A DNA stretch of 64,000 nt from Phytoseiulus persimilis (taxonomy: Eukaryota > Arthropoda > Arachnida > Mesostigmata > Phytoseiidae): positions 2,728,001 through 2,792,000 of the forward strand of contig CM075103.1 of the NCBI GenBank assembly GCA_037576195.1, read 5' to 3'. The notes beneath the pieces were generated by a model, which made no database searches, was not told where the DNA came from, and worked only from the letters and a program-made list of their open reading frames with translations. The position numbers and the translations under genes were made by a program. Positions 1 through 57,300 of the stretch are shown here, piece by piece; position 1 is the first letter of the stretch, and each line of letters starts with the position of its first letter.

Positions 1-3000
1 TCCGACAGGACGCCGTATGGCCTTGATAGCAGAGCAGGCTGATTTCAGCAGCGTTGTTTTTGGGGGACACCGATTTGACTCACACCAGAATCTGAGCTCG
101 GCCTAATAGATGTTCAGCCGCCGCTGCGCCGGCAGGAGGCACTGCGTGGAGTGCTGGCCGGTCAACTCGCCCGTGTGTCCCTCTGGCAGCAAGGCCCCCG
201 GTCCACGAGGAGCGCCGGCTGTCCCTCCTCATGAACGGCAGCAGTTCCTCTTCCATGAGCCGGCAGTGCCGTCAATGGTGTTCCAAAAATGGCATCCGCT
301 GTCTCACGCTCCACTAAAGTTTCCGGAGCAGATTCTCCTGGCCGACTCCCCTCGGGTGCCCCGTTTCCCGTCCTCTTTCTTCTTTCGCCATTTCTCTCGT
401 TCAGCCGGTAACAGGCTGGTGCCTGATGCCTCCGCGGCCGTTCAGAGGGGTATCGAGGCGTTGTTCTCTCATTTTTCACGGCTGCCTACCATCGCGGACG
501 GTGCTCCAAGGAGGGGGGGGGGAGGAGCCGAGGCGGCTGCGGCGACGGCAGCAGGGGCGGGCGGGGGGTAGGAGTGGTGGCTGCGGTGGCCGCGGCGGTG
601 CTACTACAAAAATGTCTGCGGCCTGTGAGGTGTCCCTCTTTAGCATGAAAGGGCGCCTCTCGTGCGTCTCCTCTGTGACCTGACAATATAAATGACCGCT
701 CGCCATGCTTGCTCCAGGCTCTCTCTGAAGGCACAGCCGACCAACAAGGCGGCCTGCCTGCCTCCAGGCAGACGATCGATGTCAGTCTGATCTCCTGATA
801 TCAGCCAACGCTGTTTTTATTCCACCCGATCTATCCGACCCTGGCTCCGTCCAACGCTTACCGAGTCTACTGCCCGGGTCTCCGGTCTGTTCGCGAAGTC
901 ACTGAAGTCTAGTGAGGGTCGCGTGCTCGAGCAGCAACATGCAATCCCACGAATGTTGTGATACGTCCTGACATGCTATCCAACCCTGACAAACGTCGAT
1001 GGGATCTCCTGATTTTTTGTCTGGAAATCCTCTGATTTTCTGCTCGATGCCCTTACTCCCCTCCCTTACCCTATTCCACAGGGAGTTCACGAAGAAGGAA
1101 CGAAGAAGTCACTCGACTTGATGTACACGAGGAAAGGAGTTACCTCCAAGTGAAGGGCTCGTTTACTGCATCGGTGTACGCCTCGAGTTTCTTCCGAGGT
1201 GAGACAGTTGACACGCGAACCTTCCCGCGACTTGACAATCGCTGACGCCGTTGTTGAGACTTTCGTTGGTGATCTTGTCGTTGCCGCTTGGCTTCTTCCT
1301 CCCGAGTTCCGCAAAGCGACAACAGGTGACTGCGGTGGTTGCAAATCGCATCGTATTAAAGATCTCTCGTCGCGACGAGCAGTTTCGCATTCCGTCTGAT
1401 CCCACGACCGTTGTGGCTGCTTCCCATTTTCCTACCGGGAATGTCGGGAGCGTAGTCGTGCGAGCTGGAAACGAGGCGGAGCGTTCGTTGGGTCTGGGAT
1501 TCTCATCTGCGCACATTCGCAGCGAGGTCCCCGCAGAATGAGCTCAACCTTGCGCACCGCTTCCGCATTCTTCGTGACGTCCACATCCGGTAGGTTGTCT
1601 CGGACCTCTCGCAACAATCTGAGCGTCGGTTCGAGTCGATGCGTCGGACTCGAACCCAGGATTGCTGCTGTTCAACATCGGTGAACTGCAACGGATCCGA
1701 ACAACGGAGGAAGCTCCGGCGCCGAGCTGAGACGAGATTCAGAGAGGGTTCCCGCTACTTCGCGAGGGAATCCTTGTACCCTTCCTCGGGAGCAACTCTC
1801 GAGAGGGTCGTTAGATCCATTCAGTTTTCTTAAAGTCAGGTGTCAAAGGTGCTCTCGCTCCGACAAAGAGAAATGAGATGGGGAGACATCCATTTCCGTG
1901 GTGGATTGGTGATTTGCTCACGGTCGGTCGTTTCCCCAAGATTCGCCTCAATAGACAGGGATCCCTCTCGTAAGCGAGTCTTCCCGACAACGGGACTTTG
2001 GCTCTCGCATTTAAACCTCTGCTTGTTTTCAAAATGCATGCGTGCTCTCGCTCTCCGAGCCTTCAGAAACTGACGCGAGCCACCGTGGGATCTCGAGTCG
2101 TTCTCGCGAGATCAGTGTTCCGGAGCTCTCGCGCTCGTCGCTCCTAATCTGAAGAGATGAATTTCGCAAGCGGACCGCCGACGTGGCGCCCCAATGCTCT
2201 TGTCACATGTCAGTGTCTCAGTTTCTTTGCTTCTTTTTCATTTGTGCTTCAGCCCTTCGTCCGGGAGAACAGTCCGAGATGTTGTTCCGTTTCGCCTTGC
2301 TTCCCCCGCTCGTTTACGGTCAGGGGACGACGCTTCTGATGATGTTCGCTGCGGGCTCCCGAGCCGACGTGCGGCTCGAATCCGTCCCTCTATCGAGCAC
2401 ATCCTACGTTCTGCATGTCTGTCTGCGTGACACGAATGACTTCACGAGGATTCGGCGTTGGAGAACAAGCCGACGCAATTGCCAAGTGAAGAGGGTGGTC
2501 TGCACCACGTGCGCAGATTTGCCACATCGACATCAGCTCACGTTCTCACTTCGAAAATGGTTTAGAGAGTTCCGATGTGCCGAGGGAGGAAATCGCGGGC
2601 ATCGGAACCAGAGGTCGGCCAGACTCTGGTCGTCCTCGGCTGGACAAGAGTCTCTCGTGGAGCAGCTGCCCAGAGTGTTTGCGGCAAGACAGCAATACAT
2701 CTAGATCCACGCGAAATCGTCAAAGTTCTCGTAACGCTCTTCACGATCGGAAACAGAGTATTTCCGTCGGGGGAGCGCACCGTTGTCCAGGTCATACGCC
2801 CAACCAGTCCCGGCACCATCCCGAAAGTACCACAGTTGCCTGGCTTCTTCCTTGCGAGTCGATTCCAGCGTGTCTAATATTTTTTCAGAAGCCATCAATA
2901 GCATTTGGAGTCGCTCCGGAACTTCTCGACTGGCGCTCTGCCCTTCGCTCATCTTCGAAAACCCAGAGCAGCACTTCCCCTTGAGATAGTGATATTGGGA

Positions 3001-4189
3001 TGTGGAAACTCATTTTTGGAAAAGTTTCTTCGCTGAGTGCTCGTCATCAGAAGCCCTAGTTTCTCTCCCGCTTCGAGTTGAGATACTCCAGCGGCGGTGT
3101 TTCGTAAGAGCCCCTGAACTCTCTCGCGCCCTCAACAACTTTCAACGCATGTTCCGCCGAGTCTTCGCTTTCGTGGGCGCGTAGCCTTCCTCTACGCGTG
3201 TGAATTTTTTTCCACGCTCCCTCTTTTCCCGGTCGCGTTGGATTCTTCGAACCGTGAATGGGTTATTTGAGCATCTCAACGAAATCTATCGCCACCTTCA
3301 AAAGCACGACTTCGCTTCATTTCAACGTCAATCTCTTGTGGACTATGGCTTTGTGTATTTTTCTTGCTCCATTCTCACGACGCCTTCTATTTCTCTGATT
3401 CAGTTTTCATATTGTCTACCCGATGCCTCTGAAGCCCTTGCCGGGGAGGATCCCCATGAAAAGAGAAACCCGCTGGTCCCAACCCGGTCGGGGAAATGAT
3501 CGCTGAGGGTGCTGCGAGTCAGAGACAGCAAGGGCATTACTATACATGAGATACCCCCGACTCATATGAATACACACCTGCAAACTGCATGTGGGGTCTC
3601 AGTTACAACGAGGCCCATTTCAATGTCTTTTGCGAGCGAATTCTCGGGTGAGTTCTTGTGCACTCTCAGTAAACCTCGAAGAATAAAGCCTCGCTGCTCC
3701 AGCAGCACCGGCGATCCGACGAGAACCTGACGAAAATGTCTCGGAATCAGATCGACACACGCGTAATTGGTTGGATGCTCTTTTGGATCGATTGTCGTTT
3801 TCAGCGGTCGACGCTTGCAGACTCATAGCTGAAGATCAGAGTTTTGCTTCATGCGCATCGCTATTTCGCCATCACTGGGCTGTGTAGCAGTGTATCCTCC
3901 CGCAGAACGAATCACCTGAGTCACCGAACGAGCGGAGTGAGCGCAGGCTGAGTTGGCGGAGAAAAGAACACTAACGACGATCTCGAGCTTGCCAAGGAGC
4001 AAGGAAAAACGGGGAAGTGGAGCCGTTTCCCCCGGAGTCGTCGTGATTGTCGGCCGGATGTTCCTGCGCCATTCATTTTGGGTGCGAGTCCCCGCGTGCG
4101 CCCACACAACAACGACTGTCGGATATGAGACCTATGTGACGAGCTCGTTCAGGTGCCCACGACTCCAGAGTTCCAGTTCCTCGCTGATT
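1..4189. other. no supported gene
   Basis: Short overlapping open frames on both strands, none recognised and none with convincing splice sites or codon bias. A short G run near 513-522 and one B-box-like site (about 1,650) are the only signals. Confidence 0.5.
1641..1660 (-). other. tRNA B-box-like site
   Basis: The minus strand reads CTGGGTTCGAGTCCGAC, a good B-box match. No A-box at the right distance and no acceptor stem found, so probably a SINE remnant or chance. Confidence 0.25.
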
Positions 4190-10083: not shown

Positions 10084-10091
10084 TCTCGGGG
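10084..10091. repeat. target-site duplication, left copy
   Basis: TCTCGGGG directly before the CAGAGAT terminus and repeated exactly after the right terminus at 11,122-11,129. Confidence 0.88.
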
Positions 10092-10490
10092 CAGAGATGG
10101 GCGTAATCATAATCATGATTATGACTATGATTAATAATCATAGTCAAAGTGTGATAACGAAAATAATCATACTCCGACTATGATTATTAATCACATCTTG
10201 ATTATGATTAAAAATCATAGTCAAAGTATGATTATGAATATTCTCATGATTGTGATGACTTTAACCATGTATATGATGACTATTATTTTTATTATTGTGA
10301 TTATTATTGTTCCTGGTATACTCAAGCACCCGGTGGAAGGATGACACGAACACGAGGTGCGTGCAGGACCGGGGTCCATTGACGAGACTCCGGGATCGAT
10401 CTTGACCGTACTTTTTGGAGTCAATGGAAGTGATTCCGAGATCGATCTGACGATACTTTTCCGAGTATGGAGGAGTGATTTGGGGATCGA
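10092..10490 (+). repeat. left inverted arm of the foldback element
   Basis: Reverse complement of the right arm. Order from the outside: terminal 17 bp, TAATCAT-rich palindromic section, a unique section with GTATACTCAAGCACCCGGTG, a section around GGGGTCCATTGACGAGA, then inverted partial copies of the 45-bp unit. Confidence 0.88.
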
Positions 10491-10543
10491 TCTGACCGAG
10501 CTAGCCTTCCTCCAGAATCCGACTGGCTGTTACAGATGGGTCC

Positions 10544-10813
10544 CGGAATCACTCCTCCATACTCAGAAAAGTATCGTCAGATCGATCTCGGAATCACTCC
10601 TCCATACTCAGAAAAGTATCGTCAGATCGATCGCGGAATCACTCCTCCATACTCAGAAAAGTATCGTCAGATCGATCGCGGAATCACTCCTCCATACTCA
10701 GAAAAGTATGGTCAGATCGATCGCGGAATCACTACTCCATACTCGGAAAAGTATGGTCAGATCGATCTCGGAATCACTTCCCTTGACTCCAAAAAGTACG
10801 GTCAAGATCGCTC
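10544..10813 (+). repeat. 45-bp tandem array inside the foldback element
   Basis: Five near-identical 45-bp units beginning CGGAATCACTCCTCCATACT (10,544-10,768), then a sixth diverged unit to 10,813. Units differ by a few substitutions (for example TATCGTC versus TATGGTC). Because 45 is divisible by three, the array creates a long open frame of repeated peptide, which is not evidence of a gene. The left arm holds only about two inverted units. Confidence 0.93.
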
Positions 10814-11121
10814 CCGGAATCTCGTCAATGGACCCCGGTCCCGCACGCACCTCGTGTGCGTGTCATCCTTCCACCGGGTGCTTGAGTATACCAGAAACAA
10901 TAATAATCACAATAATGAAAATAATAGTCATCATATACATGGATATAGTCATCACAATAATGCGAATATTCATAATCATACTTTGACCATGATTTCTAAT
11001 CATAATCATAATCAAGATGTGATTAATAATCATAGTCAAAGTATGATTATTTTCGTAATCACACTTTGACAATGATTATTAATCATAGTCATAATCATGA
11101 TTATGATTACGCCAATCTCTG
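10722..11121 (-). repeat. right inverted arm of the foldback element
   Basis: Mirror of the left arm, in the same order read inward from 11,121. Small differences (for example an extra CATAAT unit near 11,010) show the arms are diverging slowly. Confidence 0.88.
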
Positions 11122-11129
11122 TCTCGGGG
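11122..11129. repeat. target-site duplication, right copy
   Basis: TCTCGGGG directly after the ATCTCTG terminus, identical to 10,084-10,091. Confidence 0.88.
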
Positions 11130-54300: not shown

Positions 54301-57300
54301 AGCATGAAAACTCCGCAACAATGACTTCCTCCTGCTCGGCGTCCCCGTGGCCCGCCGTTATTGCATTAGCTGAGAGAGAGAGAGAGAGAGCATGGAACAG
54401 AGACGAGATGTTCGAGTGAGCCTAATGATCGGGTAGTTCGCTGTACTCCACAATTTCTTTTCGAAACGGAGTGACCAGACACTTTGAGCTGGAGACTCCG
54501 TTTTATTCACGAAGCCGAGTGAATGGGAGCTCTTGGCCGATGTCCAAGGCTCAATCGGCCACCCCGAACGACGGTCCCGTGACCGCCATTCTTATGAACC
54601 TATTTCCGAGAGGCCCCCTTATGTTCTTGCTCATATCCAGGTTCTCATACATCTAAGACGACGACGACGACGTCGTCTGACCTCTCGACAGCAGCGGCTG
54701 CCGTCGGAGCGGGAACCGCCGCCAGACACCGACGAGCGCGCACAGCGAAACGAGGAAAGACAAGCCAGGGAAGGTCGAGACATGGCGAGTCCAGCCACGC
54801 GGGCTGGCGGCACCTACCCAGAACGGAAGAAGTTGGCCCAGTAATTGATAACCATCTCGGACAGCTGTGCCTCTTGTCTCGAGTAGTTGCCGAAAAGGGC
54901 GTTTGGAGTGCCTAACAGAGGAGCACCTAACACGTATGAAAGATCCTCGCCGTTTACGCAGCCCGTCTTCTGAGCGTACAAGCTGTCTTCGGAGTGGTAG
55001 CCGAATACGTAAAAATTTGTTGTTGAATGGGTCCGTCTGCAAAGGGTTGGGCGCGTTAGCTCGAGCTCGATCGCGGATTCGTTCCGCTCCCGGGCATCGA
55101 TACTGACCGGTAGGCGACGGCCTGCGCGTGCAGTGTTCCCGTTTCGACGATTGGTCCAACGACAAGAGCATCGCTCAGAGCCTCTGCGGTCTCTTCGAGA
55201 ACACTAATCGGATGCTGCATGGAACGAGTCCAATCGGTGTACTCGTTAATGATGGTAAGGAAAATCTCCTGTTGATGAAACGAGTAGAGATTGCGCACTA
55301 GGGTCCGGATAATCCGATCACGTCGCTCGGCCTGAAATAGACAAACAAAAGCTCTGCGATAAGACATCAGCATCGACTGATTCTGCGAGCCTCCAGCGGC
55401 TGAGTGACGAACAGAGCGGTTGGCTGGCTTCCGAATGGATCGGAAGACGGCAGGAAACTGCGGCCGTCCCACGATTCGCGATACAGCTGTGGAAGTTGCT
55501 TGGAGAGACAGGCCGGGGTGGTCCAGGTGGAAACTCTTCCGAAGACGTCTACTCCAACTCGGCCCGAACTGGTGAACAGACTCACCTCGAAGCCGTGCTT
55601 CTCTTCATGACTCGAAAATCCGAAGTAGCTTTCAAACTTCACCACTCCAAATAGAAGGTCGTGCTGCGCGAACGGGGACGTGAGAGAAGCCATCTCCTGT
55701 CGAGGCTCGCCGGCAACGACGCTGCCATCAATAGTTGGTCCGAATGCCGTTAGGTAGTCGGGCACGTCCAACGGAATCCCTATGAGATCCTGCACTGGCC
55801 GATGCCGTAGACATTCGACGAACGCGGAGGCTTCGCTGACGGGGCAGCCGAGATGTCGGCCAACTTGGCGGGCGTACAATGCCGCGTCACGGGCAACCGC
55901 CCAAGGACTCAAGGCCGATCCCGACATCATGACGCCTCGCTTGAACAGATCTGCAATGGAGATTAATGGTCAACTTAATGGCAGACCGAGCGGCCGTCCG
56001 GCCCGCGTGTACGATGTTAGCTTTTCCTTCTCGCACTGCAGTTCATGATGACCGTCCACTGCAGTCTAAACTCGGCACCTGCTGCAGACTACTCGGATTC
56101 CCTATTCCTCTCTGTCCGCTCTTATTCCTATCTAGACCCTCTCATTCCTCTCTCTCCGCCCCCTTATTCCTCTCTCTCCTCCCTCACCGCTCTCAACTCT
56201 CTCTCTTGCTGTTGCTCTCTCTCTACCACCCTCTCTCGACGTCTTTGAAAAGTGAACTTGGTGGAGTTTCTGGAGTGTTTCGCGTCGGTGCGCAGCTACC
56301 TCCAGAGTGCCCAACTGATTTGTTTAGTAGCGCGTGAGTTTCTGCCCCAGAGAGGAGAGTCGGGAGAGTGAGTGTGAGCTTTGGCAGACAGATTGGGTGT
56401 CCTAACACTGACAAGTTGAGGCTTTGATGGTCTACCCGGACTGGTGTAGGCTGATCGAATAAAAAGCACCTGTGATCGGGGACAGAGGTCTTGCAGTGTT
56501 TTTGCGTCGTTGGCTCACGGGAAGGACCTTCGTAGCTGAATTTCCGCCGTTGTCGTTGCCACTACTGCAACGTACATGGAACGTCGTCCAAGAGCTACAC
56601 ACATTAATATTGCTTACAGCGTCCGATAGCTTCGGAAACGGGACGAGAAGAACAGGAGGTTATAAGCAGCGAGCCAGCCGGTCTCTGTGCCACCCAAAAC
56701 AGCGGCGGGACGATGGACATGGCGTGCGATTCCTCGAGCGACGGAGACAAGGAGCTACTGGAAACAGGAAAAACTCATGGAAAAGTCGGCGTTCGCGCGT
56801 CAAGTGGAACAAAGGGAGAGATGCAATGTTGGGGGCACAAGACGAAACGCATCGTCGCCTCCCCATTGGTATCGCCAGTCGAAGACTCCGTTCCGAAGAA
56901 TCCCGATGAAAGCTTCTGATGCACGCGCTCTCCTAGGCACGTTCGGCCGCACCACTTTCCGAACGACTGCAGCAGCCGAGGGAGATTCTACCGCCCAAAA
57001 CTCCAACTGAATCTTCCCCTAGTGATCCTTCTCGCTTCTTGCCCTTCCTTTTCGTTGATGTTATCGGCTTCGAGAACCGTTTCGTCAGCCGTTTTCATGC
57101 CGCCGGCCAAAACCTGTTGTCGAGTTCAGTCGGAAACCCAGAGGCTATCGAAGCATTCCGGTCAACGCCGTTCTTCGAGCATTTAGGGAAGGCGGAGCGA
57201 ACTCCGGGAGAAACTCAAAGCGGTTGAAGGATGGATTTGATCACATTTTGTGATAGAGATTTAACTTGCGACGACGATGAACGGAACGACAAAAACTCCA

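Follow-up and report, generated by a model that had tools for sequence, protein, structure and literature searches.

A foldback element of 1,030 bp with the ends CAGAGAT...ATCTCTG occupies positions 10092-11121 of a 64,000-nucleotide (nt) stretch of the Phytoseiulus persimilis genome (contig CM075103.1, positions 2,728,001 to 2,792,000), referred to here as the window. The element very probably belongs, as a non-autonomous copy, to a cut-and-paste transposon family that is of hAT type and foldback form. Its ends, its arms and the 45-bp repeats of its inner arms are common to it and to transposase-bearing copies in the same genome. The genome analyzed comprises 181 Mb in 127 contigs, with C1, C2, C3 and C4 measuring 55, 52, 39 and 28 Mb.

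The window copy has the traits of a foldback transposon, with long inverted arms, internal tandem repeats, a short or absent middle and no transposase. Its first letters are CAGAGATGGGCGTAATC and its last are the inverse of CAGAGATTGGCGTAATC; the two terminal 17-bp ends differ at one position, and a single copy of TCTCGGGG on each flank forms a perfect 8-bp target duplication. An earlier reading made from the DNA alone (the sequence-only reading) had given these ends, coordinates and duplication, all of which are confirmed, and had put arm similarity at about 94% by eye; the measured identity is 93.2%, or 94.6% over ungapped columns. Tandem repeats of 45 bp, a feature absent from that reading, make up the inner arms and the center of the element. 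A transcript across the element is predicted to fold into a single long hairpin (-706.9 kcal/mol, computed for the native sequence only). Such a hairpin, in the view of the sequence-only reading, might enter small-RNA pathways.

These ends recur genome-wide. A 22-base end motif occurs at 87 sites with at most two mismatches (29 exact, 12 with one) and a 28-base motif specific to the arms at 66 sites with at most three mismatches, while the reversed control of each motif gave 0. Twenty-six regions around such ends were taken; together with the window copy, they give 21 two-ended family copies. An 8-bp duplication flanks 19 of the 21 (13 perfect, six with one mismatch), whereas a comparable match was found in 0 of 21 copies at each of the outward offsets of 8, 16, 24, 32 and 40 bp. 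Shifting the duplication register from -4 to +4 gave a single match, at -1, and the ninth flanking base agrees in just three of the 21 copies. Thirty-eight of the 42 ends start with CAG and the remaining four with CAT, TAG, CAC/AAG or CAA. Among the 19 copies with a duplication, two measure 138 and 221 bp, 14 fall within 672-1,110 bp and three are longer, at 2,974, 3,805 and 8,721 bp. The sequence-only reading, which staked its claim on a second copy sharing the ends, had called for a search for further copies with 8-bp duplications, and such copies do exist.

Recurrence of the end motif across the genome, together with duplications in 19 of 21 copies versus 0 of 21 at the offsets, places the structure of the window element beyond chance. 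The view that no transposon is involved, and that the structure is a palindrome formed by chance or a satellite array that was rearranged, could draw on the presence of the inner tandem repeat in arrays elsewhere and on the capacity of repair to generate long palindromes, but the duplication census and three empty sites that align across the junction refute an artifact of this kind for the family, and we give the idea practically no credence.

The empty sites were sought with queries in which 60 bp of left flank, with one copy of the duplication at its end, runs directly into the 60 bp of right flank that follow the other copy; 12 queries were built and 11 searched, and 40 of 251 candidates were scored. 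Junction-spanning matches elsewhere were obtained for at least six of the 11 copies (L069, L075, L079, L080, L081 and L088). The site matching L080, at C3:10163851, is 99% identical and contains CTTCCACG once, and the sites matching L075 (C3:32988359, 95% identical) and L081 (C1:14062087, 87% identical) read through the junction. Members of this family have inserted with an 8-bp duplication.

Transposase frames are present in a 3,805-bp copy, L080 (C3:10192957-10196761), whose ends are exact and whose duplication is perfect; its arms match those of the window element at 91-92% identity, and 45-bp repeats occur on both sides. Three overlapping frames of 432, 198 and 225 amino acids (aa) lie on its minus strand; judged by eye, the two breaks between them are an apparent GT-AG intron and a frame break. 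The perfect duplication and the 99% identical empty site indicate that L080 has itself moved; its frames are broken in the assembly. A 2,974-bp copy (L099, C1:15394733-15397706), whose duplication has one mismatch, contains a decayed transposase with stops that is 77% identical over 375 residues and lies between blocks of the 45-bp repeat, and a third, partial transposase-bearing copy begins at C2:6799786. The 432-aa frame has at least 99 genome matches at E ≤ 0.001 (97 of 121 candidates scored). A transposase with the same ends had also been proposed as a check on the earlier claim, and L080 provides one, but in broken frames.

On this sequence evidence, the transposase of the 3.8-kb lineage probably moved the family. 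A different hAT lineage with similar ends could instead move the hairpin copies, with L080 as a passenger or relic and not the source of transposase. This would fit the presence of variant ends such as CAGAGTTGGGCATAATC, the many further hAT genes in the genome (at least 145 PF05699 matches, 150 of 444 candidates scored) and the frame break in L080. However, L080 has whole arms in common with the family, not just ends, and has a perfect duplication and an empty site of its own, and we consider this alternative unlikely.

A relative of the family's transposase was found at L101:807-2972 (C1:9073706-9075871), where a 722-aa open frame is 46% identical to it. In the alignment, the second D and the E catalytic positions differ in this relative, and no inverted repeats were found in L101. 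It may be a domesticated transposase gene.

hAT transposases carry catalytic D, D and E residues together with C..H and RW motifs in a fixed order, and hAT terminal inverted repeats have a consensus start of CAG. A BED zinc finger at the N-terminus is common in these proteins but not universal. The L080 transposase has the motifs TTADIW, TTDNASN, CAAH, RW and AEVERLFS in hAT order, and its catalytic D, D and E are likewise in order with C..H and RW, as judged by eye. Sub-threshold BED and hAT-dimerization matches sit at the expected protein ends. When a profile of the family is aligned to other hAT frames from the genome, the match falls on the dimerization motif and scores 29.2, whereas the reversed profile scores 15.6 and ten shuffles 11.8-19.8; the sole Protein Data Bank (PDB) matches of a relative are four Hermes entries (E 0.29-0.39). 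The transposase thus appears to belong to a divergent hAT lineage, although this is not a certainty.

Several results weigh against the interpretation of the window element as part of a hAT-type family. Beyond the broken frames of L080, the hAT-dimerization match (residues 372-414 of 432) reaches 12.2 bits against a Pfam cut-off of 21.4, and the BED match 16.0 bits against 20.6. A Pfam scan of the related 722-aa protein matched no family, phmmer gave no hit when the three pieces were compared with 25 hAT frames from the genome, and when the 432-aa frame was compared as a single-sequence profile, one of the three comparisons scored no higher than its reversed control (19.5 versus 19.6). The family profile does not retrieve Hermes, and no L080 place is among the PF05699 genome matches listed from the 150 of 444 candidates scored. 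Two of the 21 two-ended copies, L072 (three mismatches) and L085 (eight mismatches), are without an 8-bp duplication, as is L095, a copy with variant ends outside the 21. Lastly, the window copy has no empty site among the matches listed, its own flank being the sole match. Searching the PDB with the 432-aa frame or the family profile gave nothing useful. The target preferences nTnnnnAn and nnnTAnnn are traits of hAT subgroups; neither is seen in the 19 duplications, where, with both strands read (38 sequences), position 2 is T in 16 and position 4 is T in 7, and position 1 is instead C in 24.

A partial hAT resemblance could also arise in a foldback from a different superfamily, whether Mutator-like (the placement that its authors suggest for Tetris) or P-like (as in Galileo), or in an unnamed hAT-like group. 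No hAT model reaches its cut-off here, and according to the Tetris authors most foldbacks seem to belong to Mutator (PMC4079207). Against this, the duplications are 8 bp and not 9, a Pfam scan of the three frames gave no THAP and no Mutator family up to E 1, and the hAT motifs are in order with the profile alignment peaking on the hAT-dimerization motif. A Mutator or P origin is disfavored by the duplications and the Pfam scan, and we judge the alternative as a whole to be quite improbable. The core of the sequence-only reading, that the window holds a complete non-autonomous hAT-like foldback element belonging to a family, is supported by the shared ends, the 8-bp duplications and the transposase-bearing copy.

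For a hAT-type foldback family, we propose that transposase supplied in trans would recognize the ~20-bp ends (CAGAGATGGGCGTAATC), perhaps with extra contacts at repeated sites inside the arms by analogy with Galileo, in which such contacts have been shown. The window copy may have originated by loss of the coding center, which would leave two arms back to back. Unequal exchange among the 45-bp tandem repeats could then lengthen or shorten the arms and center, and intrastrand repair may homogenize the inverted arms.

Arm similarity had been taken in the sequence-only reading as a sign of a recent or gene-converted element. Across 13 copies, mean arm identity is 94.5% within copies, and between copies it is 93.9% for the same side and 94.1% for opposite sides. 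In a tree of 34 arms from 17 copies, the two arms are neighbors in two of the 15 copies listed, namely the window copy (support 88/73) and L080 (99/93); two of the 17 copies are absent from that list. Arm conversion as a rule of the family is not supported, with identity within copies similar to that between copies and arms paired in so few of them, and conversion is hinted at in the window copy and L080 only. Recency is weakly supported. Five copies of 766-841 bp (L069, L071, L078, L079 and L081) have 98.1-99.2% mutual identity, whereas identity between the window copy and the 11 others compared is 92.0-94.9%, so that "recent" suits the five-copy subgroup better.

Ordinary hAT elements have short inverted ends. 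By description, the present family resembles the TU elements of sea urchins, foldback transposons that have 8-bp duplications and whose outer arms contain short tandem repeats. With Hermes, a hAT transposase of known structure, the L080 transposase shares the catalytic motif order, and a relative has weak PDB matches to it, but there is no significant sequence match. Tetris is a foldback transposon of Drosophila virilis that its authors suggest belongs to the Mutator superfamily; its repeats are ~220 bp and its duplications 8-10 bp, no transposase copy of it was found, and it is described as a foldback feeding a satellite (PMC4079207). The family described here is similar to Tetris as portrayed there in its foldback layout, in arm tandem repeats that also occur in longer satellite-like arrays, and in having rearranged forms and a short relative, which for Tetris is DAIBAM (PMC4079207). 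Compared by description only, it differs in its 45-bp unit, its 8-bp duplication and its transposase-bearing copies with hAT-type motifs. Galileo, a Drosophila element of the P superfamily, is described as having a P-type transposase with a THAP domain, terminal inverted repeats of 0.5-1.2 kb, and transposase binding sites in tandem repeats shown experimentally (PMC3688188). Coding and non-coding copies occur in both families, but the putative DNA-binding domain here looks BED-like, below cut-off, unlike that of Galileo (PMC3688188).

Apparently, then, the family is built like Tetris and Galileo but from another superfamily, hAT. In the open-licence literature, no hAT foldback in print was found, and if the hAT assignment is true, one more superfamily is known to take the foldback form. 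Within one chromosome-scale genome, a non-autonomous foldback occurs together with relatives that share its arms and bear a transposase, with empty sites and with a satellite that matches. This co-occurrence opens two questions to direct testing: what makes the arms of some cut-and-paste transposons so long and internally repetitive, and whether repeats move from transposon to satellite or the reverse.

In sequence, the 45-bp units of the family and those of arrays across the genome are clearly related. Positions 10-13 of the family units (13 copies) read ATCG in 69 of 85 and ACCC in 12, and the units of L085 and of arrays L090-L094 are mostly ACCN at these positions. Exact 21-mers of the GATC type number 217 in the genome and those of the GACC, or satellite, type 5,977, with reversed controls of 0. 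When nearest-neighbor units were compared with L086 excluded, the L092 array and the family were mutual neighbors (62 of 85 and 35 of 41). No family ends were found within six mismatches in the array stretches L090-L094. It is a speculative and doubtful idea that the 45-bp unit is a transposase-binding module, and that insertion and unequal exchange of divergent hAT arms seeded a satellite of thousands of copies, or keep swapping units with it, so that transposon and satellite would evolve as a coupled whole, with the satellite doubling as a transposase decoy.

Table 1. Features of the foldback element and its flanks, in window positions.
Feature	Position	Strand	Remark
Left copy of 8-bp target duplication TCTCGGGG	10084..10091	.	
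Whole foldback element, 1,030 bp	10092..11121	.	Ends shared with other copies
Left arm, 406 nt: outer part AT-rich, next a short GC-rich stretch, then 45-bp repeats	10092..10497	+	Arm alignment
Right arm, 412 nt, inverted	10710..11121	-	384/412 columns match left arm
Arm-specific GC-rich motif	10321..10348	+	At C3:2738321; inverted partner 10859-10886, at C3:2738859
Left-arm 45-bp tandem repeats, 2.4 copies	10389..10497	+	
Spacer between both repeat blocks	10498..10532	.	Gap between listed repeats
Center and right-arm 45-bp tandem repeats, 6.4 copies, opposite orientation	10533..10821	-	
Right copy of 8-bp target duplication TCTCGGGG	11122..11129	.	

The satellite-type 45-bp unit was located at C1:4-24, C1:428778-441022 and C3:16439-16459 kb (L090, L091); among the first 100 of 5,977 places listed, contig C1 starts with the unit, and a long array of it lies near 0.43 Mb. 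The GATC-type motif also occurs as inverted pairs 1,025-1,027 bp apart (C1:43232557/43233582, C1:43312427/43313453, C1:45363808/45364833 and C2:7149539/7150566), which run minus then plus, the order opposite to that in the window element, and are perhaps a second transposon family with the 45-bp unit. At L040 (around C4:6960016), another hAT gene is adjoined by 45-bp units at 11 places (2727-3177). The minus strand of L085:5092-8010 holds a 973-codon stop-free frame in a 45-bp array of ~154 units; this frame may mean nothing, as the 45-bp period is divisible by three.

Rearranged and variant relatives were also observed. The 8,721-bp copy (L086, C3:32587100-32597000) has a perfect duplication and contains an 853-aa frame in which an endonuclease domain passes its cut-off and a reverse transcriptase match narrowly misses; the insert is a nested element resembling a long interspersed nuclear element. 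L095 (C2:24229965-24230930) is a relative whose ends are variant and whose arm repeats are 24 bp; the 8 bp on its two flanks are inverse complements rather than direct repeats, so that its palindrome reaches past the ends. One-ended places are L070, L074, L077 and L084, and L100 has two variant ends on the same strand. Variant ends CAGAGATGGGTATAATCATAAT occur at C3:24.21-24.55 Mb, C112 and C125 (L100) in regular steps of ~2,055 and 9,084 bp, which suggests a tandem array. An Rfam scan of L100 and L001 gave no match, and with none in L100 the regular C3 arrays are not supported as ribosomal DNA. Elsewhere in the window, an exon of a neuroligin-like gene lies on the minus strand at 55367-55969 (best PDB match E 8.4e-18).
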